This document shows positions 28,762-47,819 of a stretch of DNA of 64,000 nucleotides, piece by piece. Made by a program: the position numbers and the translations under genes. The notes beneath the pieces are model-generated. The model did not search any database, was not told where the DNA came from, and saw nothing but the letters and a program-made list of their open reading frames with translations. Origin of the DNA: Psychrobacter sp. bablab_jr014 (GTDB taxonomy: Bacteria > Pseudomonadota > Gammaproteobacteria > Pseudomonadales > Moraxellaceae); assembly GCF_016464015.1 (NCBI RefSeq), contig NZ_JACDXT010000010.1:1-64000 (forward strand), written 5' to 3'. Position 1 is the stretch's first letter; every line of letters begins with the position of its first letter.

Positions 28762-29961
28762 TTAAAAGCTAAATCCAACATTTAGGTTGATTCGTGACAA
28801 CCATTCATCGCTGTTTTCTGATGTGGTTGATGTAAAGCCCGTACCATTAGTTGCACCACCAATAATATTAGAATTCTTTCCATAAGTATGATCCAACCAA
28901 ACCAAAAATGGTGGCGCAATAAACATCACACCTGTGGTGTTCATTTGTGAATCAGACCAATCATCATGGTGCTTTTTGAGATAACTGTAGTCGTTATAGA
29001 CCTTGACGGCTTTTAACGGCCCCTTATCTTGCATAGGAATGGTATACGCTACATTTAGACTGCCTACCGTACCCTCTGAAGCAATAAAGTAGGCTGGCGT
29101 TAAACCATTTGCGCCCATCAGCGTCATACTGTCATCAACACCGCTAGGATTTTTGGCATCATAGTCATAATGTATCAGCGAGCTTTGCACATTAAACTTA
29201 TCAAAGTTGTTATTGGTGTGTAGACCGACGGCATAGTAGCTACCATCATCGTTGGTCAAATTGTTTTCCAACTGCGAATAAGCCCCTGATACCCCAAGCT
29301 CTTGCTTGCCCGCTGCAGTTTCAAATTTACGCGCAACGCGGGCGTTGACTTGATTCTTCTTTTCGTTCTCATATTGGCTCATAAAGGGAAACGTATTGTC
29401 CAACTCACTATAAGCCCCACTTTCAGGCGAGTATCTTAAGTCTTCTGCCAACATTTCAGGATAATAGCCAAGCTTGATGTCCCAGTCATTACTGTTATGA
29501 TTGATGTTTACGCCTGGCGCGATGTTGTTACCATAGCCCAAAAAGAAAGGCAGATGGTATGTCCAGCCGTTTTGCGGATAAGGGTAAATGGCAAAAGGCT
29601 TGTAGACCAAACCCGCCTCAACGCTGTTTACATCATCAATGTTATAACCAATATACGCTTTTTCAATCGAGGTCTTGTCATCGTCTTGAAAAATGTAGCT
29701 GCCGTTCAAGTAAAAATCATCATACTTTCCATCCACATCTAAACGCAGAATATCAAAATCAGCGTCGCCCAAACCTGAATTGTATTTATCATCGCTCCAG
29801 CTTTGATAGCGCTGATTGAATCGAATGACGCCGCCCACATTAAGCGCTTTTGAACCATCCTCACTTTTTAGTTCAATCACTTTGGCTTGTGCCCCTGTGA
29901 TGGTTGTCAGCCATAGCAGTGGCGCCAATACGATTAAGGGTTTTAAAATAAATTTGATCAT
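28762..29961 (-). CDS. Outer-membrane porin of the catabolic operon
   Basis: 399 residues: signal peptide ending about ITGAQA (residue 26), then alternating-residue beta strands with aromatic girdles (FYLNGSYIF, WDIKLGYYP, LNVAYTIPM, HWLSRINLNVGFSF-like end) and a C-terminal Phe, the BAM recognition mark. It resembles the OprO/OprP-like phosphate-selective/carboxylate porin superfamily in the opening 'ALNVGGVIRFNQRY' strand and the size, but the substrate is unknown. It is the last gene of the minus-strand operon, 61 bp after the TPP enzyme, and so presumably admits the substrate of the pathway. AGGAAG precedes the ATG. Confidence 0.82.
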   Translation of the reverse strand: MIKFILKPLIVLAPLLWLTTITGAQAKVIELKSEDGSKALNVGGVIRFNQRYQSWSDDKYNSGLGDADFDILRLDVDGKYDDFYLNGSYIFQDDDKTSIEKAYIGYNIDDVNSVEAGLVYKPFAIYPYPQNGWTYHLPFFLGYGNNIAPGVNINHNSNDWDIKLGYYPEMLAEDLRYSPESGAYSELDNTFPFMSQYENEKKNQVNARVARKFETAAGKQELGVSGAYSQLENNLTNDDGSYYAVGLHTNNNFDKFNVQSSLIHYDYDAKNPSGVDDSMTLMGANGLTPAYFIASEGTVGSLNVAYTIPMQDKGPLKAVKVYNDYSYLKKHHDDWSDSQMNTTGVMFIAPPFLVWLDHTYGKNSNIIGGATNGTGFTSTTSENSDEWLSRINLNVGFSF

Positions 29962-30022: not shown

Positions 30023-31672
30023 TTAATACAATTTCTTTTGCGGCGGCCCTGCAAAATTCAGTGGACCAATGGCATTCATATTGACTTCGACCAAACACAT
30101 GCCTTCTTGTTTCATGGCTTCTTTGATGGTTGTGTCAAACTCCTCTAAAGAGCTTGCCAGATAAGACGTACAACCCATCGCCTCACCCAGCGCCACAAAA
30201 GAAGGCGTGTGTAGCTCGTTGTAGTATTGTCGGCCATCAAAGTATTGTTTTTGAATGCCGCGCATGACGCCATAACCGCCGTCATTCATGACCATCAAGA
30301 CCATATTGACGTTTTCTTGTACCGCTGTGGCAATCTCGCCCACACCCAGCATCAGACCGCCATCGCCGACCAACGCCACTGTTTTTTTATCTGGGTTGGC
30401 GATAGCCGTACCAATACCATGCGCCAGACCTAAGCCAATCGCACCTGCCAGCGAGTGAATGTTTTTTAACGGCTGGTTAACTGGAAATAGGCGGCTGCCC
30501 CACGTGCTGCCTGACATCGTGATGTCTCTGACTAAAATACCGTCCTCAGGCAGGGCGTCACGCAATGAATAGCAAAGTTTGGCATATGGCCCTAGCTGCG
30601 TTTCTAGTGCATCGATAGCAAACTCTTTGGCGGCTTTAATACGCTCATCATAGTCACTATCTGTTTTATCTGTACCTTGTAGCTCTTGAATGACAGCGCG
30701 CAAAAAGGTTTTGGCTTCAGCACAAAAAAAGTGTTTGACCGCATAGTTTCTTTGCTGCGCCATCGGACTTGCGTCTATCTGTATCAGATTTTCTGGAAAA
30801 GGTAACGAATAGGTTTTGGTCTCATTACTGCGCAGCCTTGAACCGACGACAAAGCAAGCATCACTTTGAGCAATCAGTTCTTCGACCGCCGATGAGTTAT
30901 GAAATGCGTTTAAGCTTCTTGGATGGGTGTCAGGCAATACACCGCGTGCATGCGTGGAAGAAACAATCGGTATACCCATATCGGCTAAGGCTTTAACCTC
31001 TTCGCTTGCCTCAAGGCAGCCGCCACCAATCCAAACAATAGGACGACTGGCTGATTTTATTTGTTCTGCTACAAATAAAACAGCTTGTTCAGGCGACTTC
31101 GGCAGCGCCATAGCACCGACATAAGACAAGTCGCTCGGCAAATCAATAGTAGCGGCTTGTACATCAATGGGTATTTCGATACTCACTGGACCTTTGGGTA
31201 CGGTTGTCGCTACGCGTATGGCTTCTCTAAGCATACCAACAGCATGCTCTGGGCTAACAATTCTAAAAGCGGCTTTGCTGCTAGATTTTAGATAGCCCAG
31301 TTGGTCCGCCGCTTCATGAATAAAGCTGGCATCACGATCTAGGTATTCTTTTTCTACTTGTCCTGTGATATGAATGACAGGGCTGCCGGCATTACAAGCT
31401 TCAACTAAAGAGCCAATCGCATTGCCCGACCCTGCCCCTGTACTGGTAATAGCAACGCCCAATCCTTTAAATCGGGCATAAGCGTCTGCCATATTGACGC
31501 AGCCCGCCTCGCCACGTGAGCAAACAAATCTGATTTTATTTCTTCTACCAATGGCGTCAGCAATTGGTAAATTATGAATAGAAATCAGACCAAAAACATC
31601 GTTCACGCCATGCGCTTCTAAGACTCTTGCGACCAATTCACCAACGGTTACTTTGACTGTCATCCTCTTCAT
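30023..31672 (-). CDS. Thiamine-diphosphate-dependent enzyme, acetolactate synthase/decarboxylase type
   Basis: 549 residues with three-domain architecture: PYR domain (about 10-175) with the coenzyme-activating Glu55 in CSRGEAGCVNMADAYAR, a central domain (about 190-330), and the PP domain (about 370-530) with the TPP signature GDGG (436-439) to Asn463 in MNDGGYG. The family covers acetolactate synthase, glyoxylate carboligase and benzoylformate or phenylpyruvate decarboxylases; I cannot choose between them, and no regulatory small subunit gene is near, which argues against anabolic acetolactate synthase. In its operon it follows an aldehyde dehydrogenase, so decarboxylation of a 2-oxo acid to an aldehyde is a good guess. 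M4 at 31663 could be the start instead. Confidence 0.85.
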   Translation of the reverse strand: MKRMTVKVTVGELVARVLEAHGVNDVFGLISIHNLPIADAIGRRNKIRFVCSRGEAGCVNMADAYARFKGLGVAITSTGAGSGNAIGSLVEACNAGSPVIHITGQVEKEYLDRDASFIHEAADQLGYLKSSSKAAFRIVSPEHAVGMLREAIRVATTVPKGPVSIEIPIDVQAATIDLPSDLSYVGAMALPKSPEQAVLFVAEQIKSASRPIVWIGGGCLEASEEVKALADMGIPIVSSTHARGVLPDTHPRSLNAFHNSSAVEELIAQSDACFVVGSRLRSNETKTYSLPFPENLIQIDASPMAQQRNYAVKHFFCAEAKTFLRAVIQELQGTDKTDSDYDERIKAAKEFAIDALETQLGPYAKLCYSLRDALPEDGILVRDITMSGSTWGSRLFPVNQPLKNIHSLAGAIGLGLAHGIGTAIANPDKKTVALVGDGGLMLGVGEIATAVQENVNMVLMVMNDGGYGVMRGIQKQYFDGRQYYNELHTPSFVALGEAMGCTSYLASSLEEFDTTIKEAMKQEGMCLVEVNMNAIGPLNFAGPPQKKLY

Positions 31673-31759: not shown

Positions 31760-33229
31760 TTATTTAACTTCGCACCATGGATTTGGTGTGTCATCGAGAT
31801 TTAAAAATATGCTTTTGGTTTGCATATAATCCAAAATACCCAGCCTGCCCTTTTCTTTACCGACCCCACTTTCTTTATGACCACTAAAAGGCGTTGCGAT
31901 AGAGAATTTCTTATACGTATTAATCCATATGGTTCCTGCCTCAAGGCGCTTTGCTGTCGTTAAGGCTTTACGGTAATCCTCTGTCCATATACCCGCCGCA
32001 AGCCCATAAATACTATTGTTCGCCTCAGCGACTAATGCTTCTTCATCACTAAATGGCATCACAACCAACACCGGACCAAAGATTTCTTCTTGACAAACTT
32101 GCGCCTCATTACTTAGACCTGTGATGATGGTTGGGGCATAGTAAGATCCTTGGTCACGACCATCACTCATCAATCGCTCACCGCCAGCCATCACCTTGCC
32201 ACCTTCGGCTTTGGCCATATTGACGTAGTCATCCACACTCTTAAGATGACTTTCGCTGATTAAAGGTCCCATTTGGGTATCGGGTGCTTCTGGGTCACCG
32301 ACAATAATGTTTTTGGTTTTCTTAACTAGGGCGTCTAAAAATTCATCATAAATATGTTGGTGAACAAACAGTCTTGAGCCTGCAATACACGCCTGCCCTG
32401 ATGAACTAAAAATACCGTAGATAACACCATTTACCGCCATGTCGATGTTGGCATCTGCAAACACAATCGTCGGAGACTTGCCGCCCAGCTCTAACGCCGT
32501 AGAAATGAGCTTATCCGCAGCCACATGTGCCAGATGCTTGCCTGTACTGGTACTGCCTGTGAAAGAAATTTTTTGTACCAGTGGATGGTGGACAATGGCT
32601 TCGCCAACCACAGAGCCTTTACCTGTGAGTACGCTCAACAACCCAGCAGGCAAACCAGCTTCTTCAAAGATAGCGGCAAGCTCAAGCGCAATCAGCGAGG
32701 TGGCTTCGGCAGGCTTTAAAATTACAGCGTTACCACCTGCAAGCGCAGGTACGATTTTTTGGATTTCGGACGCGATGGGCGAATTCCACGGCGTAATGGC
32801 AGCGACCACCCCTATTGGTTCGTACGTGGTAAAGGTTAAGACAGACTGAATACGCTGATTGGTCAGCTCGCTATCTAATGTCTCAAGGCAGCTGGCAATA
32901 TAACGGGTCGTGGCGATTGCGCTGTTGACCAGACCTGTGGTTTCTGAAATGGGTTTGCCATTGTCTCGGGTTTGCAGCTTTGCCAAAAATGTTTTTTTCT
33001 CTTCTAAAAGATTGGCAGCTTTAAATAAAATGGCAGCCTTTTCTGATGGCAGCGAGTTGCGCCAAGCGGGGTCTCGCCAAGCCGCTTCAGCCGCTAAAAT
33101 GGCGTCATTAACATCATCCACACTGGCGGTAGAGATTTCTGCGTTTTGTGAGTAATCGGCAGGATAATGGCTCTTTGTTGGTTTCCCACGCCCAAGCTTC
33201 CATTGACCTGCGATAAATATTTTTTTCAT
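31760..33229 (-). CDS. NAD(P)-dependent aldehyde dehydrogenase
   Basis: 489 residues, the normal ALDH size. Cofactor helix and catalytic residues are present: TPWNSP (about 146), FTGSTSTGK (223-231), the general base Glu247 in ELGGKSP and the nucleophile Cys281 in SSGQACIAG. The protein resembles the betaine/2-aminomuconate-semialdehyde/aromatic-aldehyde group. Sits between the AspDH-like gene and the TPP enzyme in the catabolic operon; it probably oxidises the aldehyde that the TPP enzyme makes. Substrate not assigned. Confidence 0.93.
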   Translation of the reverse strand: MKKIFIAGQWKLGRGKPTKSHYPADYSQNAEISTASVDDVNDAILAAEAAWRDPAWRNSLPSEKAAILFKAANLLEEKKTFLAKLQTRDNGKPISETTGLVNSAIATTRYIASCLETLDSELTNQRIQSVLTFTTYEPIGVVAAITPWNSPIASEIQKIVPALAGGNAVILKPAEATSLIALELAAIFEEAGLPAGLLSVLTGKGSVVGEAIVHHPLVQKISFTGSTSTGKHLAHVAADKLISTALELGGKSPTIVFADANIDMAVNGVIYGIFSSSGQACIAGSRLFVHQHIYDEFLDALVKKTKNIIVGDPEAPDTQMGPLISESHLKSVDDYVNMAKAEGGKVMAGGERLMSDGRDQGSYYAPTIITGLSNEAQVCQEEIFGPVLVVMPFSDEEALVAEANNSIYGLAAGIWTEDYRKALTTAKRLEAGTIWINTYKKFSIATPFSGHKESGVGKEKGRLGILDYMQTKSIFLNLDDTPNPWCEVK

Positions 33230-34067: not shown

Positions 34068-34862
34068 TTATATTTCTTTGCTTAATCCACCAGAGACATC
34101 AATCACTGAGCCTGTAGTGTAAGAAGACAATGGTGACGCCAAAAACATCAAAGCGTAAGCGGCCTCTTCAGGTTTACCTAAGCGCCCCATAGGAATCTGT
34201 TTTTTGTTGGCAACGCCAGCTGTCCACCCTACCCAATCTTTGGTTTTATCAGAGCGCGCTTCAAAACGTCTACGCCACTGTCCAGACTCCACCAGACCAA
34301 TCAATATTGAGTTGACTCTGATGTTCTCTTTGACCAATTCATTAGCGAGGTTTTTGCTGAGGTTCAATAGACCCGCTCTGGCAACCGAGGTGGCAACCAT
34401 ATGCGTCTCTGGCTTAAGACCTAAAAGTGAGTTCACATTGGTGATTGAGGCAATATCCGACTGTTTTAGATAAGGCAATGCCGCATGGATCATATTGACG
34501 ACGCTAAAAACTTTAAGCTGCAACTCATCTATCCAGTCTTGTTCCTCGGTCGCAAAAAAATCAGCCACCTTACCTTGGCCTGCGTTATTGACGAGCATGT
34601 CAATGGCGCCAAACTTTTTGACCACCAAAGCGACGTAATTGGCCACTTGCTCTTTTTTTAGGACATCGCATTGATGAATAAACATCTGACTGGAATCGTA
34701 ATCCTTACTCAGTAGGTCAAAGGTGGCTTGGAGTTTTTTATCGTCTCTGCCACACCAAGCCACACGCGCACCTTCTGCCAAAAACAGCTTGACCAACGCA
34801 AGCCCGATACCAGAGGAACCACCAGTGACGATGACTACTTTATTTCTTACTTGAAAACTCAT
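34068..34862 (-). CDS. SDR-fold protein lacking the catalytic Tyr and Lys
   Basis: 264 residues. Classical SDR outline: cofactor loop TGGSSGIG (13-20), NNAG (92-95), Ser145 and the C-terminal TGSVIDVSGG. The YxxxK catalytic pair is replaced: the expected Tyr is Thr158 and the expected Lys is Arg162 (HMVATSVARAG), confirmed by reading the codons ACC and AGA. Dehydrogenase activity by the standard mechanism is therefore doubtful; it may be a pseudo-enzyme, a subunit, or use another chemistry. The start overlaps the stop of the upstream hydrolase gene as ATGA, so the two are translationally coupled and probably made in equal amounts. Confidence 0.88.
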   Translation of the reverse strand: MSFQVRNKVVIVTGGSSGIGLALVKLFLAEGARVAWCGRDDKKLQATFDLLSKDYDSSQMFIHQCDVLKKEQVANYVALVVKKFGAIDMLVNNAGQGKVADFFATEEQDWIDELQLKVFSVVNMIHAALPYLKQSDIASITNVNSLLGLKPETHMVATSVARAGLLNLSKNLANELVKENIRVNSILIGLVESGQWRRRFEARSDKTKDWVGWTAGVANKKQIPMGRLGKPEEAAYALMFLASPLSSYTTGSVIDVSGGLSKEI

Positions 34863-35668
34863 AAATCATCACCTTGTATGATGGACAATAAAACTTGATT
34901 AAAACGCGCTGGCTGATCCAAATACGACAAATGACTGGCATCCTCAATCGCGTGCAGTGAAATATGTTGGTGCCGCTTTGCAATCTCAAACATAATCTTA
35001 GGCGGGGTAATACCATCCTCAGTGCCATAGATTAAATCGATAGGTTTGTCTATTTTTGCCAAATAATGATGGATGCTGTCATGCGCCAGTAATCGTGACG
35101 ACTTTTCAAACCCTGTCAGCGTAATTTGCGTCATGATGCTTTCAAGTAAGGCAACATTGTCGTCATTGGCATGAAACAATAAGACACTACTACGGCGGCG
35201 CGCCATTTCTGCACCGCCGAGCTGTTTTAATAGTGCTGGACGCATCTTAGCGACTTCATCTTGCTTGACTTCTTCAAACTCACCGTAACCTTGCGCAGGA
35301 TTGACCAGTATCAGACGATTAACGATCTCTGGATACTCCGCGGCAAAGCCTGCCGCGATGAGTGCGCCTAAAGAATGCCCAACAAGAGTGATATGCTTGA
35401 TATTTCTTGCAACCAAAAGGCAGTGTAAACGCCGGCTGTAATCACGTGCCGTGGGCACCTGCTGTGTCATCTGTCCACTTTTTCCATACCCTGGCGCATT
35501 CCATGCCAGTGCTGGGCTCTTACCTGCAAAAAATGCCATTTGGTTCGTCCAAGACGCGCAACCTGAGCTAATACCATGCAAAAAGACCGTCGTCTCACTA
35601 CCTTGCGTGTCGTTTTGAATAAACTCAATGTCACTGACTGAGTCATACTGTTTGTCAAAATGCGTCAT
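34859..35668 (-). CDS. Alpha/beta hydrolase, probable meta-cleavage-product hydrolase
   Basis: 269 residues. Oxyanion loop HGISSG (31-36), nucleophile Ser99 in GHSLG, Asp218 in GTEDGITP and His246 in ASHLSYL complete the triad. Layout and length fit the C-C hydrolases that act after extradiol ring cleavage (BphD/MhpC group) but also esterases and haloperoxidase-like proteins. The start at 35668 is fixed by AAAGGAG 6 bp upstream, although the frame stays open to 35800. It is overlapped by the SDR-like gene and is preceded by the cupin gene; the extradiol dioxygenase gene is in the same operon. Confidence 0.9.
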   Translation of the reverse strand: MTHFDKQYDSVSDIEFIQNDTQGSETTVFLHGISSGCASWTNQMAFFAGKSPALAWNAPGYGKSGQMTQQVPTARDYSRRLHCLLVARNIKHITLVGHSLGALIAAGFAAEYPEIVNRLILVNPAQGYGEFEEVKQDEVAKMRPALLKQLGGAEMARRRSSVLLFHANDDNVALLESIMTQITLTGFEKSSRLLAHDSIHHYLAKIDKPIDLIYGTEDGITPPKIMFEIAKRHQHISLHAIEDASHLSYLDQPARFNQVLLSIIQGDDL

Positions 35669-35732: not shown

Positions 35733-36254
35733 TTAACGCTTAATCTTCGATAGCGGATGATCTTCTGGATAAGTTGGAATGACAGGTTTTGGGTTGCCAA
35801 TCATCACGCACATCAGTGCATCTTCTTGCGTATGATTGCGCAGCCCTCTGTACACATTGGGCGGAATCGAAATCAAATCTCTATAATTAAGAATTAAAGA
35901 GGTCTCTTCACCATTGTCTTCAACCGTCAACTCAATCGAGCCGCGCAGCATAAAAAAGACTTCTTCAGCATCGGTATGGACATGCGGCGGACCTTCGCAG
36001 CCTGCGGGCAACAGCATGGTTGAAAAGGTAAAGTTTTCAGCGGGCACCGTATTGTTGTCTCCTGACACCCCTGTTGCGCCTGTGCCCATATAGCGCATTT
36101 GGGCGCGGCGGTACTTGGGATCAAAGTCCGCTTGGAATTTTAGGGCGCTAAAGTCATATTCACGATTTTCAAATCTGGCCACACGGGTCGATATCCAATC
36201 TTTTAATGTGCTGCCTTCTGGTCTGTGCCACGTGCTGGTATTTTTGGTATTCAT
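35733..36254 (-). CDS. Cupin-domain protein
   Basis: 173 residues from the ATG at 36254, which has AAGGAG upstream. A single cupin barrel: motif 1 is PPHVHTDAEEVFFMLRGSIE (HxH...E), so two histidines and a Glu for metal are there. Motif 2 is IPPNVYRGLRNHT, where the usual metal His is Arg. Such proteins in aromatic operons are often dioxygenases or isomerases, or bind a pathway intermediate, but the missing His makes activity uncertain. Operon position between hydrolase and MFS gene. Confidence 0.85.
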   Translation of the reverse strand: MNTKNTSTWHRPEGSTLKDWISTRVARFENREYDFSALKFQADFDPKYRRAQMRYMGTGATGVSGDNNTVPAENFTFSTMLLPAGCEGPPHVHTDAEEVFFMLRGSIELTVEDNGEETSLILNYRDLISIPPNVYRGLRNHTQEDALMCVMIGNPKPVIPTYPEDHPLSKIKR

Positions 36255-36332
36255 AACCGTACTCCTTGTTGTTTGGTTCACTATTTGCTAGATAACTTGC
36301 ATAAACATGTTTTAAATAACTTTCTTTTATTC

Positions 36333-37571
36333 CTAGTACTTTTTCAGTAGTGGTAATAAAAAGAAAGATGAAACGATAGCCACCCCTGCCAAAAACATAA
36401 TGCCGTAATCAATATTTCCGGTATAAACGACAATATAACCAATCAAAACTGGGGCTAAGGCGCTACCAAAGTTGCCAAAGCCGTTGAAAATACCGCCTGC
36501 TGTGGTTGCGACTTCTTTTGCTGTTGTATTGGCAAGCAGCGCAAAAATGGCAGAGACATTAAACCCCCATAAAAAAGCACTTGCCGACATAAAGATAAGT
36601 ACATTGACTACGCTGTGTTGATAGATAAGCAAGAACATAGTAATGCCCGCACCAAACAATCCACCGAATACTTGTAGCGCACGTTTATTTGGAAATCTGT
36701 CTGAATTAAATGCCCCGACAACCTCACCAATCAGCATGGCTAAAAAGGGAATCATAGATAAAGTACCAAACTGTTTTAAATCAAAGCCTTTTGCTTCTAT
36801 GAGATAAGTCGGTATCCAGCTGTTTAATCCCCAAAGATATGCTAATGTGCCCACATTAAAGAAAGTCACCAACCAAAAGGGCTTACTGCTTAGCAGTTTT
36901 GTGAAGTTTGTTTTATGGTCAACGCTCTTTCTATTCGCTTTCACATACGTGATACCCTTTAATCCAAAAAACACAAGGATGAATAGGAATATGGTGATAA
37001 ACGACATGAAGTAAAACGTGGCTTCCCAATGATAGTTTTGTAAAATGAGCGCGGTAAGCGGAAACCCAAGTGCTGCGCCTAGTGGTGTACCGAGTAAAAA
37101 TAAGGTAGAGGCGCGTGCCTGTTCTGATTCGGTATAATTTTGCTTTACAATGCTATAGCACAGCGCCAATAAAGGACCTTCAGCGATACCAAGTAAAACT
37201 CGATAAAATAGCAGCATATAAAAATTATTGGTTAAGCCCATAAGCAACATTAAAATGCCCCAACTGGCGATACCGCCGAGCAGTATTCTTTTGGGGCCAA
37301 AAATATCACCAACGAAACTTAAAAAGACAGAAGAAAGACCATAGGCCAATAAGAAAATACTCATCAACCAACCGAGTTTGGTTTTGTCCCCTGCAATACC
37401 AAAGTCAGATAAAAACGCAGGATCTGAAAACAAGACAGCAATACTGATTTTGTCAAAAAATGCTAATATTACAGTTATCATTAATACAATAGCAGGCAGC
37501 CAGTATTTAAACCCGCCCGGTCTGTTTCTTTGTACGCCTACAGCGTCCACATTGTCTATGGTTGTATCCAT
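36333..37571 (-). CDS. MFS transporter (anion:cation symporter-like)
   Basis: 412 residues, 12 predicted TM helices in two six-helix halves with a cytoplasmic loop at about 190-215 (KANRKSVDHKTNF). Topology and the opening 'LPAIVLMITVILAFFDKISIAVLFSDPAF' region suit the ACS/aromatic-acid transporter branch that imports organic anions by proton symport. The ATG at 37571 is 9 bp after AAGG; the alternative ATG at 37580 has that sequence immediately in front of it and is unlikely. It probably carries the substrate of the surrounding pathway across the inner membrane. Confidence 0.88.
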   Translation of the reverse strand: MDTTIDNVDAVGVQRNRPGGFKYWLPAIVLMITVILAFFDKISIAVLFSDPAFLSDFGIAGDKTKLGWLMSIFLLAYGLSSVFLSFVGDIFGPKRILLGGIASWGILMLLMGLTNNFYMLLFYRVLLGIAEGPLLALCYSIVKQNYTESEQARASTLFLLGTPLGAALGFPLTALILQNYHWEATFYFMSFITIFLFILVFFGLKGITYVKANRKSVDHKTNFTKLLSSKPFWLVTFFNVGTLAYLWGLNSWIPTYLIEAKGFDLKQFGTLSMIPFLAMLIGEVVGAFNSDRFPNKRALQVFGGLFGAGITMFLLIYQHSVVNVLIFMSASAFLWGFNVSAIFALLANTTAKEVATTAGGIFNGFGNFGSALAPVLIGYIVVYTGNIDYGIMFLAGVAIVSSFFLLPLLKKY

Positions 37572-37702
37572 GTCTATCATCCTTGATAATCAACTTAAAA
37601 TTTAATGACTTAATCCGTAACTACATAACACTCAAACTCTTTAGCATTTTCCTGTCCATAAAAAATAAAAATTGAATTTTATATGTTTATTTTTTACATA
37701 GA

Positions 37703-38932
37703 CTATTTCGGCTTTATTTTCATCAGATTAAAAGACGTATCCGCCAGCACTTCTGAATCTAATGGTAGCGATGCCTTAATCCATCGTTTGGCTATTTTGA
37801 CAACTTTGTTGTTATTAATTGCGACCAGATAGCGCAGTTTTTTTTCATCATCAAGATAAAAGAAACAATCATCACCCGACCCATCGGCTCGGATAACCCG
37901 CTGGCAAACGTCAATATCAACAGGGGTGCCTAATATTTGGATGTTTTTGTCATATTGATCCGACCACAGCCATGGTGTCTCTTTATAAGGTATGTTTTGA
38001 TTCAGCATCGACTTGGCAGCAGTCACGCCTTGATGCTGCGCGTTTGACCAAGACTGGATACAAAACCCTAAGCTGGGATGGATAGCCACATCACCTGCGG
38101 CATAAATGTCAGGGTCATTGGTTTGACAGTACTCATCGACGATGATGCCATCTTGTGTTTCAAGGCCTGATAGCTCAGCCACTTCTTTGTTGATGTGCGC
38201 TCCTGTGCCCAAAAACACCACATCATGAGACATTGTCTCGCTGGCGCCCTCGTTGTCAGTGATATGCACCTTGACGGATGAGTGTGCATCATCTTGCGTC
38301 AGGTCAATGTTTTTACAGGACAATTTGATATGGACGCCATGCTGCTCATGTAGGTTAAAAAGATAGTCTGAAACCTCTTGGCTGACGCTTCTGGCACACA
38401 ATCTGTCATTCATCTCATAGACAGTTACGTTGATGTTGCGTTTGGATAAGGATGCGGCGACTTCTAAACCAATCCAGCCCCCACCAATGATGCCCACATT
38501 CTTTGCGTGCTTAATTTTGTCTTGAATATGCAGACTGTCTTCAATGTTACGTAGGCTTACCACGCTGTCATAAGACGACCATCGCTCAACAGGAATTTTT
38601 GCCTTGCTGCCAGTGGCAATCAGTAGCTTGTCGTAAGCAATGTTTTGATGGTCATTGGTCTGCACCTGTTTGTTTTGACGATCAATGTGCGTCACAGTGA
38701 CAGGTTTTAATAGCGTAATATCAAGTGCATCGACCACGTCATCTTTAAATATTTTTAAAGAGTCGTGCGTGGCTTCACCCAACAGCACTTGCTTAGATAA
38801 AGGAGGCCGCTCATAAAAGGCATAGTCTTCGTTCCCTATGATTATCAGGCTGCCTGTATAGCCTTCTTCTCTTAGGGTTTTTGCTGTCCATATTGCAGCT
38901 TGACCTGCACCGACGATGACAATCTTATTCAT
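37703..38932 (-). CDS. FAD-dependent ferredoxin reductase of the ring-hydroxylating oxygenase
   Basis: 409 residues. FAD-binding GAGQAAIWTA (8-17), the NERPPLSK-type signature YERPPLSK, the NAD loop GGGWIGLEVAASL (about 149-161) and the second FAD motif GDVAIHP identify a BphA4/TodA-like reductase that passes electrons from NADH to a Rieske ferredoxin. The C-terminal reductase domain (about 330-409) completes the protein. It carries a perfect AGGAGG ribosome-binding site. It lies in the same operon as the Rieske ferredoxin and oxygenase, and so makes up the third component of that system. Confidence 0.92.
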   Translation of the reverse strand: MNKIVIVGAGQAAIWTAKTLREEGYTGSLIIIGNEDYAFYERPPLSKQVLLGEATHDSLKIFKDDVVDALDITLLKPVTVTHIDRQNKQVQTNDHQNIAYDKLLIATGSKAKIPVERWSSYDSVVSLRNIEDSLHIQDKIKHAKNVGIIGGGWIGLEVAASLSKRNINVTVYEMNDRLCARSVSQEVSDYLFNLHEQHGVHIKLSCKNIDLTQDDAHSSVKVHITDNEGASETMSHDVVFLGTGAHINKEVAELSGLETQDGIIVDEYCQTNDPDIYAAGDVAIHPSLGFCIQSWSNAQHQGVTAAKSMLNQNIPYKETPWLWSDQYDKNIQILGTPVDIDVCQRVIRADGSGDDCFFYLDDEKKLRYLVAINNNKVVKIAKRWIKASLPLDSEVLADTSFNLMKIKPK

Positions 38933-38982: not shown

Positions 38983-39915
38983 TTACATGTTATTGATTTG
39001 CCGTCTGGTGGCGTCATCGATACCGCCTTCTACGGCCCACTCTGTAAATAAATCTAAAGAGTAGTCATAGTGGCGCGCTTGCCATTCGGGTGTGAGATAG
39101 TCGTCATTGGTGTAATATTCAAAAGCACCGCCAAACGGAGAATGTACATACCAAAAGTAAGCAGAAGAAACAGGATGTCTGCCAGGACCAATAAACGAAT
39201 CCCATTTTTTTCGGTTCATGTGTAGACCGCCACCGATGACTTCATGAATGTCTCGCACAATAAAGGCCACGTGATTTAACCCCGGCGTTTCTTTATGCGG
39301 CAGCTTTAACAAAAACAGATTGTGGTGCCAACCTTCGCCCGCGCAGCGCATAAAGGCGCCTCTGTTGTTGTAAGCGTCTGATAAATAAAAGCCCAGCTTG
39401 TCTTCATAAAAAGTTTGCGCGGCAGCAAGATTTGGACTAAAGAGCACGACGTGCCCTACACCAAGTGGCGAGGCTTTTTCATAGACTGGGCTGGCTTCAT
39501 TGACTCGATTGATAGCGCCATATTGGTTGATGCCTGCGCTTGCCTTGTCAAGATTGGTTTGCAGCACATACACCTCAAAAGAGAGTGTCAATCTATTAGG
39601 GTCGCGGCAATACAAAGTCTCTGGCGTTACGTGATAGCCATCGACATCTTTTAAACGCTCTTTTAAGGTATCGAAACTCGCTTGATTATCGACGGCCCAA
39701 GTGATTTCTCTGAGCGTCGAGCCGTCTTCAAATGCAGGCGGCAGTCTGTCATCGTCTTTGTCATAGACATAAATTGTGCTGCCATTGTCCATAGAAAATT
39801 TTGTCGTGCCGTCGATATCGGTACTGACTTCTTCTAAGCCAAAATCAGTAGCAAACTTTTGACACTGAGCTCGGTCTTCAACGCCGAACTTTAAGGTTTT
39901 AATTCCGTTTATCAT
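38983..39915 (-). CDS. Type I (VOC) extradiol ring-cleavage dioxygenase
   Basis: 310 residues made of two VOC modules: the N-terminal one (about 1-120) is structural and the C-terminal one (about 145-270) is catalytic. Iron ligands are visible at His155 (GVGHVVLF), His215 (GLNHVAFIV) and Glu266 (GAFEYYTNDD), matching the spacing of BphC-type enzymes. A Tyr in that last segment and a His in HPVSSAYFWY complete the active site outline. It should cleave a catechol-like or N-heterocyclic diol next to the hydroxyls; the exact substrate is not known. AAGGAG precedes the ATG. Confidence 0.93.
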   Translation of the reverse strand: MINGIKTLKFGVEDRAQCQKFATDFGLEEVSTDIDGTTKFSMDNGSTIYVYDKDDDRLPPAFEDGSTLREITWAVDNQASFDTLKERLKDVDGYHVTPETLYCRDPNRLTLSFEVYVLQTNLDKASAGINQYGAINRVNEASPVYEKASPLGVGHVVLFSPNLAAAQTFYEDKLGFYLSDAYNNRGAFMRCAGEGWHHNLFLLKLPHKETPGLNHVAFIVRDIHEVIGGGLHMNRKKWDSFIGPGRHPVSSAYFWYVHSPFGGAFEYYTNDDYLTPEWQARHYDYSLDLFTEWAVEGGIDDATRRQINNM

Positions 39916-39965: not shown

Positions 39966-40724
39966 TCAGTTGAATACAAAGCCACCATTTACTGGAATAT
40001 TTTGACCCGTGACAAAAGAGGCAAGGTCAGACAGCAAGTAGATTGCAGTACCATCAATGTCTTCAGGGTATTGTTTTCTGTTTAGCGCTCGACCATTGAC
40101 GTAGTGGTCATGGCGCTGCTGCGGAACATAAGCGGTGGCCTCAACGATAGTGAGTCCAGGCGCGATACAATTGACACAAATATTGTCTTCACCCAGCTCA
40201 CGCGCCATAGAGCGCGTCATGGCAATGATGGCGCCTTTGCTTGCGGTATATGCCATAAGATTCGGTGCGCCCCAAAGCGCGGTGTCTGAGGCAATATTGA
40301 CAATCTTTCCTGCTTTGGCTGCTTTTAGATACGGGGTCAGTGCTTTACTCAAGAGCCAAGTGCCTTTGACATTGATTTGCATCACGCGATCCCACAGATT
40401 TTCGTCATAGTCCATCATGTTTTTACCGCCAACGCCTGTTGCCAGCGCGCCGCAGTTTATCAGGCCATCAATCTGCGCATTTTGAGCAACCACGCTATCT
40501 ACGGTGGCTTGAATACTGGAGGCGCTTGCCAAATCGATATGCCACGCGCTGGTCTTTAGTCCCTGTGCTTTTAGTTGCGCAGCTTGTTTGGTGACCTCAT
40601 CTTCTAAAACATCCAACATCACCACTTCTGCGCCTTCTTTAGCGCAGGCAACGGCAAACGATAATCCCAAACCGCGTGCGGCACCTGATACCACAATTCT
40701 TTTATCACTTAATAGCTGGCTCAT
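39966..40724 (-). CDS. SDR-family dehydrogenase, candidate dihydrodiol dehydrogenase
   Basis: 252 residues, classical SDR. TGxxxGxG appears as SGAARGLG (13-20), the NAG motif as NCGAL (90-94), and the catalytic set Ser146, Tyr159 and Lys163 (YTASK) is intact. It lies between the ring-hydroxylating oxygenase gene and the extradiol dioxygenase gene, where a cis-dihydrodiol dehydrogenase is expected. Contrast with the second SDR of the operon (34068-34862), whose Tyr and Lys are lost. Confidence 0.9.
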   Translation of the reverse strand: MSQLLSDKRIVVSGAARGLGLSFAVACAKEGAEVVMLDVLEDEVTKQAAQLKAQGLKTSAWHIDLASASSIQATVDSVVAQNAQIDGLINCGALATGVGGKNMMDYDENLWDRVMQINVKGTWLLSKALTPYLKAAKAGKIVNIASDTALWGAPNLMAYTASKGAIIAMTRSMARELGEDNICVNCIAPGLTIVEATAYVPQQRHDHYVNGRALNRKQYPEDIDGTAIYLLSDLASFVTGQNIPVNGGFVFN

Positions 40725-40775: not shown

Positions 40776-41819
40776 TTAAGCGCCGGCTTGCTCTTCTTTT
40801 GCTGCCTTTTGATCTTGCAGCTGGCTAAATTGCTTTTTGCCTTCTTTTTGAAATATTCTTCTTAAACGCGCCAGCCCGACATCATGCTGATATAAAAATT
40901 CATGAGCCTGTGCATTCGGTGCTAGATTTTCCAAAATGATTCTGTCTTGCTCCAAGACATCCCAGTGCAATTTTTCAAGATGCGTGCGGTACATAAAGCG
41001 CCATGTATCACGCTGCCAGCCTTGTACTTCGCGGCAACGCCAAAAGAAAACGCGGGTATGATGCTCATCAATGGGTGTGGCAAAACCCACAATCCAAAAC
41101 ACACCGCCTGGGCCAAACGATTTTTTGTAAGGAATGGACAGTCGCAACCAAGGACTTCCTGTATCGCCATACTCTACCCAGTCAAAATTCACACCTTTTT
41201 GACCTGTTTTTTCAAACACAAAACCATTCTCAGTACGATTAAAGGCCATGTCCGACTGCTTATCGCCCTCTGACATCGAATGAGATGTGGCATGCAAAAA
41301 GGTGCCGTGCATGGGGTCCATGACATTATCAACGGCATATTGATAATTGACTTTCCAATCCGCCATGCACAAAAAGCTGCTCCAATCTTCACTGGCAAGC
41401 TGTTCAGGCAATACCAAAGGCGTTGGTTCCTGTCCATCTTCTAAACCAAACCAAACAAAGATAGCGCCATTTTTTTCTTGAACAGGGTAACTGCGGACAC
41501 AAGATTGACCTTCTAATGGACAGTTATTAACAGCAGGCACATCTACGACCGTACCTGTTTGGTCCACTTCCACGCCGTGATACCAGCAAGCCACCTTATT
41601 ACCTAGGTTCCAGCCCAATGACAGTCGAGCGCCGCGATGCGGACAGCGGTCTTCTAATGCGTGTACCTCACCTTGGTCGTCTCGCCACAACACCAGATTC
41701 TCGCCCAAACGGGTAATACCGACTGGATTGGCCGCTATCTCCCAAGAAGACAGCACGGGATGCCAGCGATTTCTAAGTCCTAATGACAAATATTCTTCCA
41801 ATGATTGAAACGGTCTCAT
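40776..41819 (-). CDS. Rieske ring-hydroxylating oxygenase, alpha subunit
   Basis: 347 residues. Rieske [2Fe-2S] ligands Cys59, His61 (CPHRGA) and Cys78, His81 (CWYHGV), then the mononuclear iron site NVMDPMHGTFLH (Asp168, His171, His176) and a later candidate Asp in LEQDRIILENL. No beta-subunit gene is adjacent, so this is an alpha-only (alpha-3-type) oxygenase, as in vanillate demethylase and phthalate-type enzymes. With the ferredoxin and reductase genes of the same operon it can form a three-component oxygenase. A charged C-terminal tail (GKKQFSQLQDQKAAKEEQ) is unusual and probably disordered. Shine-Dalgarno GGGAG. Confidence 0.94.
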   Translation of the reverse strand: MRPFQSLEEYLSLGLRNRWHPVLSSWEIAANPVGITRLGENLVLWRDDQGEVHALEDRCPHRGARLSLGWNLGNKVACWYHGVEVDQTGTVVDVPAVNNCPLEGQSCVRSYPVQEKNGAIFVWFGLEDGQEPTPLVLPEQLASEDWSSFLCMADWKVNYQYAVDNVMDPMHGTFLHATSHSMSEGDKQSDMAFNRTENGFVFEKTGQKGVNFDWVEYGDTGSPWLRLSIPYKKSFGPGGVFWIVGFATPIDEHHTRVFFWRCREVQGWQRDTWRFMYRTHLEKLHWDVLEQDRIILENLAPNAQAHEFLYQHDVGLARLRRIFQKEGKKQFSQLQDQKAAKEEQAGA

Positions 41820-41846: not shown

Positions 41847-42146
41847 TTAGTGACCCAGCCGTGCCATTTCTTGTTCAAATGACGCTGTGGTAAATGCGGT
41901 TCCATCGCTATGCAGCATGCCTTGCGCATTGAGCGCACTGACGACCGCTTCTAAAGTTTCAGCCCCTGATGAAAACGCTTCGATTAGATGGTTTGCCAAA
42001 GACACTTCGTAGTCGGTCGGCTGATGATCGCGGGTCTGCCATACGATTAACGTGGGCTTATCTGGCATTTGAATGTTGTTGATACCCGCATCCTTGCTGG
42101 GACTGTGTTGCTTCCAACGGATTAAACCTTCGTTGTAGTGCTGCAT
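41847..42146 (-). CDS. Small recombinase-like helix-turn-helix protein
   Basis: 99 residues. It begins MQHYNEGLIRWKQHSPSKDA and ends in a helical region (YEVSLANHLIEAFSSGAETL... ALNAQGMLHSDG) that resembles the short HTH of recombinase-type proteins; such a small protein is often encoded beside Rieske oxygenases of this kind. It has no catalytic recombinase domain and I do not think it moves DNA. Role unknown: regulator, assembly factor or oxygenase accessory. Between ferredoxin and oxygenase genes; strong AGGAG ribosome-binding site. Confidence 0.72.
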   Translation of the reverse strand: MQHYNEGLIRWKQHSPSKDAGINNIQMPDKPTLIVWQTRDHQPTDYEVSLANHLIEAFSSGAETLEAVVSALNAQGMLHSDGTAFTTASFEQEMARLGH

Positions 42147-42184: not shown

Positions 42185-42496
42185 TTACGCTTTATCCTGA
42201 AGATAAATTTTGTCTGCTTCGATTTTTAAGGCATACGTGCATAAGTTTCTATCGGCAGGACCACTTAACAACTTACCGCTTTTGATATCAAAAATAGCCT
42301 CATGTAGCGGGCACTCTACCGTCTCATCTTCAATAAAACCGTCAGTCAATAGGGCATAAGCATGCGGACATACGTTTTCTACAGCAAAGTAAGCGTCTTC
42401 GATTTGAAACACCCCAATCTTTTTGCCATTGACTTCTACAGATTTTGGCTCATCTTCGTTGACATCGGATAAATCGCATATGGGTAACCAGTCCAT
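42185..42496 (-). CDS. Rieske-type [2Fe-2S] ferredoxin
   Basis: 103 residues from the ATG at 42496, which follows AAGGAC; the open frame continues to 42577 but that would overlap the promoter. Ligands are Cys43 and His45 (CPHAYA) and Cys62 and His65 (CPLHEA), the CxH/CxxH pair of oxygenase ferredoxins. The electron route would be NADH, the reductase at 37703-38932, this ferredoxin, the oxygenase at 40776-41819. First gene of the minus-strand operon. Confidence 0.93.
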   Translation of the reverse strand: MDWLPICDLSDVNEDEPKSVEVNGKKIGVFQIEDAYFAVENVCPHAYALLTDGFIEDETVECPLHEAIFDIKSGKLLSGPADRNLCTYALKIEADKIYLQDKA

Positions 42497-42830: not shown

Positions 42831-43628
42831 ATGACCAAAACATTGTCTGATGAAAAATACATAGTAAACAGCTTGCGTAATGGCATTTTGCTGATGGAGC
42901 TTTTTAATAAAGATGATATTAATGAGATGTCATTATCAGAGATTGCAGCACAGCTAAGGATAAACAAATCCAGCGCTTATAGATTATTGTTTACTCTAGA
43001 ACAGATGGGTTATATCAAAAAAGACCACAACAAAAACTATATGTTAGATCTTAAAGTGGTAGATTTATCGCACTCGTATTTAAAGTCCATTTCTTTTAAA
43101 CAAGAAGCTTATGCTGTCATGGAGCAGTTGCGAGACGATACAGGAACAGCGATACACTTGTTTACTCTAGATGGTACAGAAATTGTCAACTTACAAAATA
43201 TTCAGCCGCTAGGCAGCTTTACCTCGAACATTTTGCCTGGTTTAAGATGGCCAGCGTACGCTACCGTTATTGGACAAATGCTGTTAAGTGACTTATCAGA
43301 TGAAGAAGTCAAAAGCAGATTCGAGCACTTTTCTACATGGGAATCTTATTCTGATGCGACGCCGACCAACCTTGATTCCCTATTACAAGCTGTCCAGCGT
43401 GCTCGGGGTAAAAAACACCTAACAAGCTGGCAAAAGTTTAATAACGACATGGTTGCCTGTACCGCACCTATCAAGGATCTTTCTTCTAATAAAATGGTTT
43501 ATGCATTGTCTTTGAGTTTCCCAGCACATGCGTTTACTCCAGAGCATTTTGAGCAGCACATCGTACCTGCTATCGTTGAGGCAGCGGACAATCTGAGCAG
43601 AATTTATAAACCTAATAGCAATTGGTAA
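42831..43628 (+). CDS. IclR-family transcriptional regulator
   Basis: 265 residues. Winged HTH at about 15-75 (MSLSEIAAQLRINKSSAYRLL with wing GYIKKDHNKNY), an interdomain helix, and the IclR effector domain (about 85-260) with LFTLDGTEIVNLQ and YALSLSFPAHAF. The gene is divergent from the catabolic operon with a 334-bp shared region containing the operon promoter and a candidate operator. It probably controls the operon in response to a pathway compound, acting as repressor or activator; both are known for the family. Its own -10 may be TATGAT at 42790-42795. It ends before a bidirectional terminator. Confidence 0.92.
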   Translation: MTKTLSDEKYIVNSLRNGILLMELFNKDDINEMSLSEIAAQLRINKSSAYRLLFTLEQMGYIKKDHNKNYMLDLKVVDLSHSYLKSISFKQEAYAVMEQLRDDTGTAIHLFTLDGTEIVNLQNIQPLGSFTSNILPGLRWPAYATVIGQMLLSDLSDEEVKSRFEHFSTWESYSDATPTNLDSLLQAVQRARGKKHLTSWQKFNNDMVACTAPIKDLSSNKMVYALSLSFPAHAFTPEHFEQHIVPAIVEAADNLSRIYKPNSNW

Positions 43629-46007: not shown

Positions 46008-47819
46008 ATGACGGCGCAAACATTAGAGACGCAATCGGCTGCCCAGCAGCAAGCGAGCGACTGGCTACAAAACTTCGAACAAGCACTCAAAGACAAAGAT
46101 ATCGACAAAGCGGCAGACTGTTTTGAAAAAGACGGTTACTGGCGCGACTTGATTGCCTTTACGTGGAATATTAAGACGTTAGAGGGTCAAGAGGATATCA
46201 AAGACATGCTCACGCATACGCTGGAGACTGCCGAGCCGCATCACTGGGAGGTGGACGATGCAGTCGAAAATGGCGGCGTGATTGAGGCATGGATTCGCTT
46301 TCAGACCAAAGTCGCCAAAGGGTTTGGACATTTGCGGTTGCGCGATGGCAAGGCATGGACGCTGCTGACGACCATGACAGAGCTCAAAGACTATCCTGAA
46401 AAACGCAACAAACTGCGCGCAAAAGGTGCAGAGCACGGCGTCAATCCTGATCGCGAAACGTGGAAAGAAAAACGCGAAAATGAAGCGGAAACCCTTGGCT
46501 ACAGTGAGCAGCCTTATTGCCTGGTGATTGGTGGTGGTCAAGGCGGCATCGGTCTTGGGGCGCGCTTACGTCAATTAGAAGTGCCGACCATCGTCATTGA
46601 CAAACAGCCAAGACCTGGCGACACGTGGCGCAACCGCTATAAATCCTTATGTCTGCATGACCCTGTGTGGTATGACCATCTGCCCTATTTGCCCTTTCCT
46701 GAGAACTGGCCTGTCTTCACACCCAAAGACAAAATCGGCGATTGGCTTGAGATGTATACCAAAATTATGGAAATCAACTATTGGGGCTCGACTGAGTGCT
46801 TGAGCGCCGAGTTTGACGAAGAGGCGCAGCAATGGAATGTCGAAGTCGATAGAGATGGCGAGCGCCTGACCTTGCATCCTAAGCAGTTGGTCTTGGCCAC
46901 GGGTATGTCGGGATTGCCCAACATTCCCAAGATTAAGGGCATGGAAGACTTTGAGGGTGAGCAGCACCATTCTAGCCAGCATCCAGGTGGCGAAGCGTTT
47001 CGCGGTAAAAAATGTGTGGTGCTTGGCGCAAACAATTCGGCACACGATATCTGCGCGGCATTATGGGAAAATGGCGCAGACGTGACTATGATTCAGCGCT
47101 CATCGACGCATATTATTAAGTCGGATACCTTAATGAAAGAGGTCTTGGGCGGGCTGTATTCAGAAGAAGCGATTGAGAACGGCATGACCACCTACAAGGC
47201 GGATTTAACCTTTGCCTCGATTCCTTTTAAAATCATGCCGCAGTTTCATGAGCCTGTATACCGTAAGGTTGCCGAGTTGGATGCCGATTTTTATCAGCGC
47301 CTAGAAGACGCAGGCTTTATGCTTGACTTTGGTGATGATTACACGGGTTTATTCATGAAATATCTGCGCCGCGGCTCAGGCTACTATATTGATGTGGGTG
47401 CCTCCGAGCTGGTCGCCGATGGCAAAATCAAATTAAAATCAGGCGTCAGTATCGACCATATCAAGCCGCATTCGGTGGTCTTGACCGATGGCACGGAGCT
47501 GGAAGCCGACTTAATCGTTTATGCTACAGGCTTTGGCTCCATGAATGGCTGGGCGGCCAAAATCATCTCTCAAGAGGTCGCGGATAAGGTCGGTAAATGC
47601 TGGGGCATGGGCTCGGAGACCAAAAAAGACCCCGGTCCATGGGAAGGCGAGCTTAGAAACATGTGGAAGCCCACGCAGCAGGAGGCGCTATGGTTCCATG
47701 GCGGTAACTTGCATCAGTCGCGGCACTACTCGCAGTATCTGTCCTTGCAATTAAAGGCGCGTATGGAGGGTTTGGACACGCCTGTATATGGACTGCAAGA
47801 AGTGCATCATTTGACGTAG
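46008..47819 (+). CDS. Flavin-containing monooxygenase with N-terminal NTF2-like domain
   Basis: 603 residues. Residues about 12-130 form an NTF2/SnoaL-like domain (QNFEQALKDKDIDKAADCFE, WRDLIAFTW, IEAWIRFQTK). The flavoprotein part has FAD-binding VIGGGQGGIGLGARL (Gly175, 177, 180), the GDTWRNRYKSLCLHDP segment, the NADPH motif VVLGANNSAHDI (about 337-348) and LIVYATGFGS. It belongs with YUCCA/FMO-like and CzcO-like monooxygenases, which oxygenate nucleophilic or ketone substrates with NADPH and O2; the substrate cannot be told. An AAGGAGAGG ribosome-binding site precedes the ATG. Monocistronic; downstream is a 15-bp inverted repeat. Confidence 0.9.
   Translation: MTAQTLETQSAAQQQASDWLQNFEQALKDKDIDKAADCFEKDGYWRDLIAFTWNIKTLEGQEDIKDMLTHTLETAEPHHWEVDDAVENGGVIEAWIRFQTKVAKGFGHLRLRDGKAWTLLTTMTELKDYPEKRNKLRAKGAEHGVNPDRETWKEKRENEAETLGYSEQPYCLVIGGGQGGIGLGARLRQLEVPTIVIDKQPRPGDTWRNRYKSLCLHDPVWYDHLPYLPFPENWPVFTPKDKIGDWLEMYTKIMEINYWGSTECLSAEFDEEAQQWNVEVDRDGERLTLHPKQLVLATGMSGLPNIPKIKGMEDFEGEQHHSSQHPGGEAFRGKKCVVLGANNSAHDICAALWENGADVTMIQRSSTHIIKSDTLMKEVLGGLYSEEAIENGMTTYKADLTFASIPFKIMPQFHEPVYRKVAELDADFYQRLEDAGFMLDFGDDYTGLFMKYLRRGSGYYIDVGASELVADGKIKLKSGVSIDHIKPHSVVLTDGTELEADLIVYATGFGSMNGWAAKIISQEVADKVGKCWGMGSETKKDPGPWEGELRNMWKPTQQEALWFHGGNLHQSRHYSQYLSLQLKARMEGLDTPVYGLQEVHHLT

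Follow-up and report, generated by a model that had tools for sequence, protein, structure and literature searches.

Which reaction, if any, can be catalyzed by an SDR that has lost both the tyrosine and the lysine of its active site? The question is raised by a gene, here called SDRx, in Psychrobacter sp. bablab_jr014 (contig NZ_JACDXT010000010.1). The window, that is the whole stretch of DNA that was analyzed, comprises 64,000 nucleotides of this contig. At a probability of roughly 0.4, our reading is that SDRx belongs to the Q9HYA2/PRK07062 family as a functional SDR that binds NADP(H) and has the tetrad K-S-T-R, and that it would serve as an ene reductase in the lower portion of a pathway for aromatic compounds, most likely that for kynurenate or xanthurenate.

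SDRx and its catalytic residues

SDRx is part of a gene cluster with the following features:

42831..43628, plus strand: IclR-type regulator, divergent
42185..42496, minus strand: Rieske-type ferredoxin
41847..42146, minus strand: 99-amino-acid protein; relatives are annotated 'recombinase-like helix-turn-helix'
40776..41819, minus strand: Rieske oxygenase, alpha subunit type
39966..40724, minus strand: SDR2, an ordinary SDR with YTASK; putative dihydrodiol dehydrogenase
38983..39915, minus strand: VOC-fold extradiol dioxygenase; H155, H215 and E266 are likely iron ligands (motif reading)
37703..38932, minus strand: ferredoxin reductase type flavoprotein
36333..37580, minus strand: MFS transporter; family matches below cut-off
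35733..36281, minus strand: cupin, weakly similar to quercetinases; coordinates of the longest ORF, GTG start
34859..35668, minus strand: alpha/beta hydrolase with GHSLG; likely start ATG 35668 behind AGGAG (269 amino acids), not TTG 35800
34068..34862, minus strand: SDRx, 264 amino acids, ATG start; K117-S145-T158-R162 replaces N-S-Y-K; Q9HYA2 orthologue, NCBIfam PRK07062
33254..34045, minus strand: aspartate dehydrogenase family protein (AspDH); NF009828, 381 bits against a cut-off of 177
31760..33229, minus strand: aldehyde dehydrogenase (ALDH)
30023..31672, minus strand: thiamine-diphosphate (TPP) enzyme; NF005470 PRK07064, 794 bits against a cut-off of 495; GDG motif
28762..29961, minus strand: porin-like outer-membrane protein; relative in 4 of the 27 loci described below

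Along the minus strand the genes follow each other as listed, from the ferredoxin to the porin, and an A. baumannii record displays the same gene order. The hydrolase is 269 amino acids long in three Psychrobacter relatives as well. The catalytic motifs of the TPP enzyme, the ALDH and the extradiol dioxygenase are presumably all kept. The gene for the 99-amino-acid protein, matched in 12 of the 27 loci, either separates the ferredoxin gene from the Rieske gene or adjoins an ABC transporter. Near the cluster, at 46008-47819 on the plus strand, the window encodes a 603-amino-acid flavin-type monooxygenase-like protein with an N-terminal extension.

The SDRx reading frame is intact, and internal stops are absent. 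The original prediction placed Thr158 and Arg162 at the tyrosine and lysine positions of an SDR that retains Ser145, the TGGSSGIG loop (residues 13-20) and NNAG (residues 92-95), and the reading frame and the codons (ACC, AGA and, for the serine, TCA) agree with this. The altered catalytic pair is thus real, but the change was slightly understated; residue 117, the asparagine of the usual tetrad, is a lysine (AAA) that had been overlooked. The full tetrad, K117-S145-T158-R162, retains only the serine of the usual catalytic four. SDRx consequently does not display the classical Asn-Ser-Tyr-Lys tetrad (YxxxK), while the features of the SDR fold family, the TGxxxGxG cofactor loop, NNAG and a Rossmann fold, are all present. 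SDR2 does keep YTASK, as was stated.

The AlphaFold model of SDRx has a mean pLDDT of 85.7, with residues 250-264 below 50. By fold it is closest to 3LF1/3LF2 (Z 35.6, rmsd 1.7 over 261 residues), the 'Short Chain Oxidoreductase Q9HYA2', which is also the best sequence match in the PDB (E 1e-85). These entries have been in the PDB since 2010, their titles mention an 'atypical catalytic center', and 3LF2 contains bound NADPH. The cofactor-type fold that had been proposed is supported. Since the title of this relative names NADPH, and since R39 of SDRx is invariant in the alignment of 21 operon homologues, SDRx itself probably binds NADPH. NCBIfam places the protein in NF005468 PRK07062 (SDR family oxidoreductase) with 398.6 bits against a cut-off of 266 and no difference from the family was seen; the model names no specific function.

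Could SDRx simply be a decayed gene of this strain? Nothing but the missing tyrosine and lysine speaks for this, and its probability is negligible. Comparison with three other Psychrobacter gave dN/dS values of 0.040, 0.043 and 0.052, which are rough because dS (1.6-1.9) is near saturation, and the relatives have the same tetrad. All 21 aligned operon homologues, the window included, have K117, S145, T158 and R162, and 17 further operon loci read KSTR (16) or KATR (1), so that K, T and R are kept in all 17 and S in 16; the plasmid loci L087, L090, L091 and L092 are left out of these counts. The Thr/Arg pair is thus conserved in the same operon context. No operon homologue that was read keeps the tyrosine and the lysine, a result that would have refuted the original prediction, and together with the low dN/dS (0.04-0.05) the conserved tetrad rules out a pseudogene. 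The altered chemistry that had been suggested is likely. The single K-A-T-R protein (L113:9581-10351) is encoded in a draft genome, and in this case the catalytic serine is also replaced, by alanine.

Among 50 distinct SDRs, each protein being counted once (L001 equals L002), 22 read KSTR, eight KNTR and 20 NSYK. The tree of these proteins puts the 30 that have the T/R pair on the same side of a branch supported at 100/98, although several branches are long and the deep joins unsure. K, T and R change together across the whole T/R clade. The deep relatives with K-N-T-R include L081:9499-10302, L083:8518-9300 and L085:6711-7514, which have the same odd tetrad in another gene context; their neighbours we take to be lgt, thyA, folA and a TANGO2-like gene. 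Another deep relative, L082, is itself KSTR and has an ALDH and a TPP gene nearby. None of five deep K-[SN]-T-R relatives tested reached the PRK07062 cut-off. As their gene contexts differ, these relatives were dropped as a hint to the substrate, and the tetrad alone cannot name one. A second SDR adjoining the cluster on the Caballeronia plasmid pNK84 (L094:23456-24244), 43% identical, reads K-S-S-R and has a serine at the tyrosine site.

Gene content of the loci

A first set of 27 loci, including a contig of only 4.4 kb, was examined by tblastn. SDRx and the hydrolase are found in all 27, the TPP enzyme and the extradiol dioxygenase in 26 each, AspDH in 25, ALDH in 24 and the cupin in 23. SDR2 is present in 18 loci and the Rieske oxygenase in 17; ten loci have a flavin monooxygenase and six a sulfatase. 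A second set of 17 loci, several of which are cut by contig or record ends, contains SDRx, the hydrolase and the TPP enzyme in 17 each, the extradiol dioxygenase in 16, the cupin, SDR2 and the Rieske oxygenase in 15 each, AspDH and ALDH in 13 each, the flavin monooxygenase in seven and the sulfatase in one. SDRx thus belongs to a nearly constant lower-pathway set consisting of extradiol dioxygenase, hydrolase, SDRx, TPP enzyme, ALDH, AspDH and cupin, while the upper part is a Rieske oxygenase with an ordinary SDR, a flavin monooxygenase, or both.

The two upper parts display a pattern when L072, a short contig, and L087, the incomplete locus of pCAR3, are set aside from the first set. Of the 25 loci that remain, all 17 with a Rieske oxygenase also have SDR2, which is absent from the other eight; the flavin monooxygenase is found in 8/8 without and 2/17 with a Rieske oxygenase. 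As the loci of both sets are related by descent, the Fisher values (9e-7 and 4e-5) are to be taken as a description of this pattern. In the second set L112 follows the Rieske/SDR2 rule, L097 has a Rieske oxygenase without SDR2, and L114 (4 kb) has SDR2 without a Rieske oxygenase; the flavin monooxygenase is found in six of its 15 Rieske loci as well. As SDR2 tracks the Rieske oxygenase, it fits the dihydrodiol step. SDRx does not track it, and would therefore act after the catechol has been formed, whichever enzyme formed it. SDRx as the dihydrodiol dehydrogenase was rejected for the same reason, the exceptions being L097 and L114.

At L074 and L077 a sulfatase, DctM/DctQ-type TRAP genes and the flavin monooxygenase occupy the place that the Rieske module has in other loci, and these loci may point to a sulfated phenolic substrate. 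The L077 copy, the one flavin monooxygenase compared with the PDB, has 6-hydroxynicotinate 3-monooxygenase as its closest relative there, and the acids on which that enzyme works are hydroxylated N-heteroaromatics. L112 encodes both a flavin monooxygenase and a sulfatase, and AspDH was not found between its ALDH and TPP genes.

The original prediction described SDRx as fused by ATGA coupling to the hydrolase and suggested a structural partner. The coupling exists, in that the ATG of SDRx overlaps the hydrolase stop by four bases, in the window and in L001-L003 alike, but these are two overlapping genes and not a fusion. The overlap and the loss of tyrosine and lysine would suit a non-redox, NADPH-binding protein with a structural or regulatory role. 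Against such a role, which we consider very improbable, the hydrolase gene is directly upstream of SDRx in just 12 of the 27 loci, the others having the extradiol dioxygenase (eight), the IclR gene (six) or SDR2 (one) in this position, so that a structural partner of the hydrolase finds no support. Residues Q195, W196, R198 and R199 are moreover invariant in the alignment of 21 operon homologues, which suggests a ligand site.

On plasmid pCAR3 (L087) the hydrolase, SDRx and SDR2 adjoin genes for a 4-hydroxy-2-oxovalerate aldolase, an acylating acetaldehyde dehydrogenase and a member of the fumarylacetoacetate hydrolase family, and no TPP enzyme, AspDH, ALDH or VOC-type dioxygenase was found within 12 kb. 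A 2-hydroxypentadienoate lower pathway was considered and rejected, aldolase and hydratase-type genes adjoining SDRx in pCAR3 only.

MhpC releases succinate. By analogy, the substrate of the cluster could be of the aryl-alanine type, with the hydrolase releasing L-aspartate from the ring-cleavage product for use by AspDH. The two-way upper part, which resembles that of hca/mhp, is in favour of this. So is the substrate range of the aspartate dehydrogenases from Klebsiella and Delftia, which act on oxaloacetate and L-aspartate according to the available part of PMC5554190. Such a route is nevertheless improbable; it leaves no task for the TPP enzyme, the ALDH, the cupin and SDRx, and of the aldolase and hydratase-type genes that it needs, relatives of the pCAR3 copies adjoin SDRx at only one of the 27 loci, pCAR3 itself.

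A possible role in kynurenate and xanthurenate degradation

Extradiol cleavage of a fused catechol yields a 2-oxo-3-enoate. In the kynurenate route of Pseudomonas the ring-cleavage product is reduced at the C=C bond, decarboxylated and oxidised. To our knowledge, the enzymes for degradation of kynurenate and xanthurenate have been without genes since the 1960s. Given the missing tyrosine and the gene context, SDRx is best read as a putative C=C reductase that would use NADPH and take the ring-cleavage product as its substrate. The Tyr/Lys-assisted alcohol-ketone chemistry would be lost, and hydride would be transferred from NADPH to the activated C=C bond in the 2-oxo-3-enoate side chain of the extradiol product, while Lys117, Arg162 and the invariant R198/R199 might hold its carboxylates. 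The saturated 2-oxo acid would then be passed to the TPP enzyme for decarboxylation and further to the ALDH.

SDRx might alternatively still be an alcohol/ketone oxidoreductase with a rebuilt centre, in which Thr, Arg, Lys and a bound anion stand in for the tyrosine hydroxyl. All four positions hold conserved polar residues and the closest relative has an NADPH-bound entry, as would be expected of such an enzyme. It would also match the structure paper on Q9HYA2 from 2010, in which a chloride bound at the catalytic centre is reportedly suggested. We nevertheless regard it as rather unlikely, as K, T and R change together in the clade, and as precedents among SDRs without the tyrosine reduce C=C bonds. 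One such precedent is presumably AerF. Another is found in Mentha, where exchange between Glu and Tyr switches an SDR between ene reduction and ketoreduction, as described in the available part of PMC4988501. These precedents are redox enzymes, and together with the NADPH-bound relative they leave the view that SDRx is 'probably non-redox' unsupported.

A C=C reductase would fit into the following scheme. Kynurenate, by way of the Rieske oxygenase and SDR2, or xanthurenate, by way of the flavin monooxygenase, would be converted to 7,8-dihydroxykynurenate, the ring of which would be cleaved. Reduction by SDRx, decarboxylation and oxidation would follow, whereupon the hydrolase and the cupin might open the pyridine ring and provide iminosuccinate or oxaloacetate, a C4 fragment to which the nitrogen may belong, for AspDH. 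The sulfatase could, more speculatively, free xanthurenate from a sulfate ester. In its most specific form, which is a tentative proposal, the cluster would be a bacterial pathway for degradation of kynurenate and xanthurenate, the K-[SN]-T-R SDRs would make up a separate catalytic class of ene reductases, and SDRx would reduce 5-(3-carboxy-3-oxopropenyl)-4,6-dihydroxypicolinate.

The enzyme classes in the cluster resemble those of this route, and candidates for its steps are found together there. The TPP enzyme needs a reservation, since among solved structures it is closest to BbmA and acetolactate synthases (5.6e-55 and 7.6e-47), and benzoylformate decarboxylases rank lower (8.2e-33), so that homology does not by itself make it a decarboxylase. 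Enzymatic formation of 7,8-dihydroxykynurenate is cited for P. fluorescens in the available part of PMC5610271, and that of PMC11354673 mentions kynurenic acid degradation with glutamate synthesis in Pseudomonas extracts. A literature search, most subscription journals being outside its reach, found neither a gene cluster nor a gene assignment for kynurenate or xanthurenate degradation.

Tryptophan dioxygenase is encoded in 13 of 19 genomes with the cluster against 21 of 120 genomes of a phylum sample, a difference confounded by kinship and genome size; the genome of the window has none. G266 is the only one of the 13 in which a single contig holds both this gene and the cluster. In G266 tryptophan dioxygenase and kynureninase are about 9-12 kb from the cluster with unrelated genes between, just beyond the flank examined. 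Neither gene was found in the window or in the flanks of the 27 and 17 loci (mostly 8-15 kb on each side, less where a contig ended). Linkage to kynurenine genes, being seen only in G266, lends the pathway little support at most; genes that break down a substrate from outside the cell do not have to be close to them.

The locus comparison assigns SDRx to the lower steps of a pathway for aromatic compounds and turns an 'atypical SDR' into an enzyme with a testable reaction. Kynurenic acid is a tryptophan product and a host signalling molecule. If the kynurenate reading is true, the cluster supplies a group of long-known enzymes with candidate genes, and bacteria, among them strains of A. baumannii, could use it to remove this molecule.

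Distribution and comparison with known systems

In the genus sample the PRK07062 cut-off was exceeded in one of 60 genomes, that of the window, and three named Psychrobacter contigs carry the SDRx gene. With the best candidates of each genome scored, 18 of 398 genomes of the phylum sample matched at E <=1e-40, and identity was >=48% in 15 of these; the order sample gave matches in 11 of 390, five with >=51% identity, the own genome being included in both identity counts. The same type of search found 12 of 248 genomes at 1e-50 in the family of G266. In a plasmid collection 36 records, some of them megabases long, match SDRx at 1e-30, from Acinetobacter, Burkholderia, Caballeronia, Klebsiella, Vibrio, Novosphingobium and others. 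Loci of the pathway come from Gamma-, Beta- and Alphaproteobacteria, with one on a plasmid of Streptomyces. This scattered distribution suggests horizontal spread of the SDRx gene.

The closest known protein, Q9HYA2 of P. aeruginosa PAO1, is from another species, and is 54% identical to SDRx over 262 columns; the K-S-T-R residues of the two proteins coincide in the alignment. The same cluster is presumably found around Q9HYA2 in P. aeruginosa. In the available part of PMC9732424, PA3505 is predicted to be essential in three of four media. The literature search found no function for an atypical SDR centre of the Q9HYA2 type. The atypical catalytic centre as such is rare but already known, and SDRx is one more orthologue. 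What is new is the assignment of SDRx to the lower pathway from 44 loci, together with a pathway hypothesis that is testable but unproven.

AerF of Microcystis aeruginosa (PDB 6JH7, 6JHA and 6JHB) shares the SDR fold (Z about 30) and NADPH with SDRx, although the two are only 27-28% identical. In the alignment AerF, like SDRx, has Lys at the Asn site; its Ser, Tyr and Lys sites are occupied by Gly, Ser and Asn, respectively, and it is thus itself without both the tyrosine and the lysine. According to the PDB titles it was solved with NADPH and 4-hydroxyphenylpyruvate, a 2-oxo acid; the enzyme, which we take to reduce a double bond, presumably belongs to a biosynthetic pathway. Isopiperitenone reductase from Mentha is likewise an SDR that reduces a C=C bond with its catalytic tyrosine replaced, as described in the available part of PMC4988501. 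It differs in being a plant enzyme with Glu in place of Tyr, and the likeness to SDRx is one of description, not of sequence.

At the level of the pathway, the closest parallel is the phenylpropionate pathway encoded by hca/mhp. Here too the upper part is two-way, and a Rieske oxygenase with an SDR or a flavin monooxygenase converge on an extradiol dioxygenase, as they do in the SDRx loci. The lower part of hca/mhp uses a hydratase and an aldolase, whereas the SDRx cluster has the TPP enzyme, the ALDH, AspDH, the cupin and SDRx in their place.
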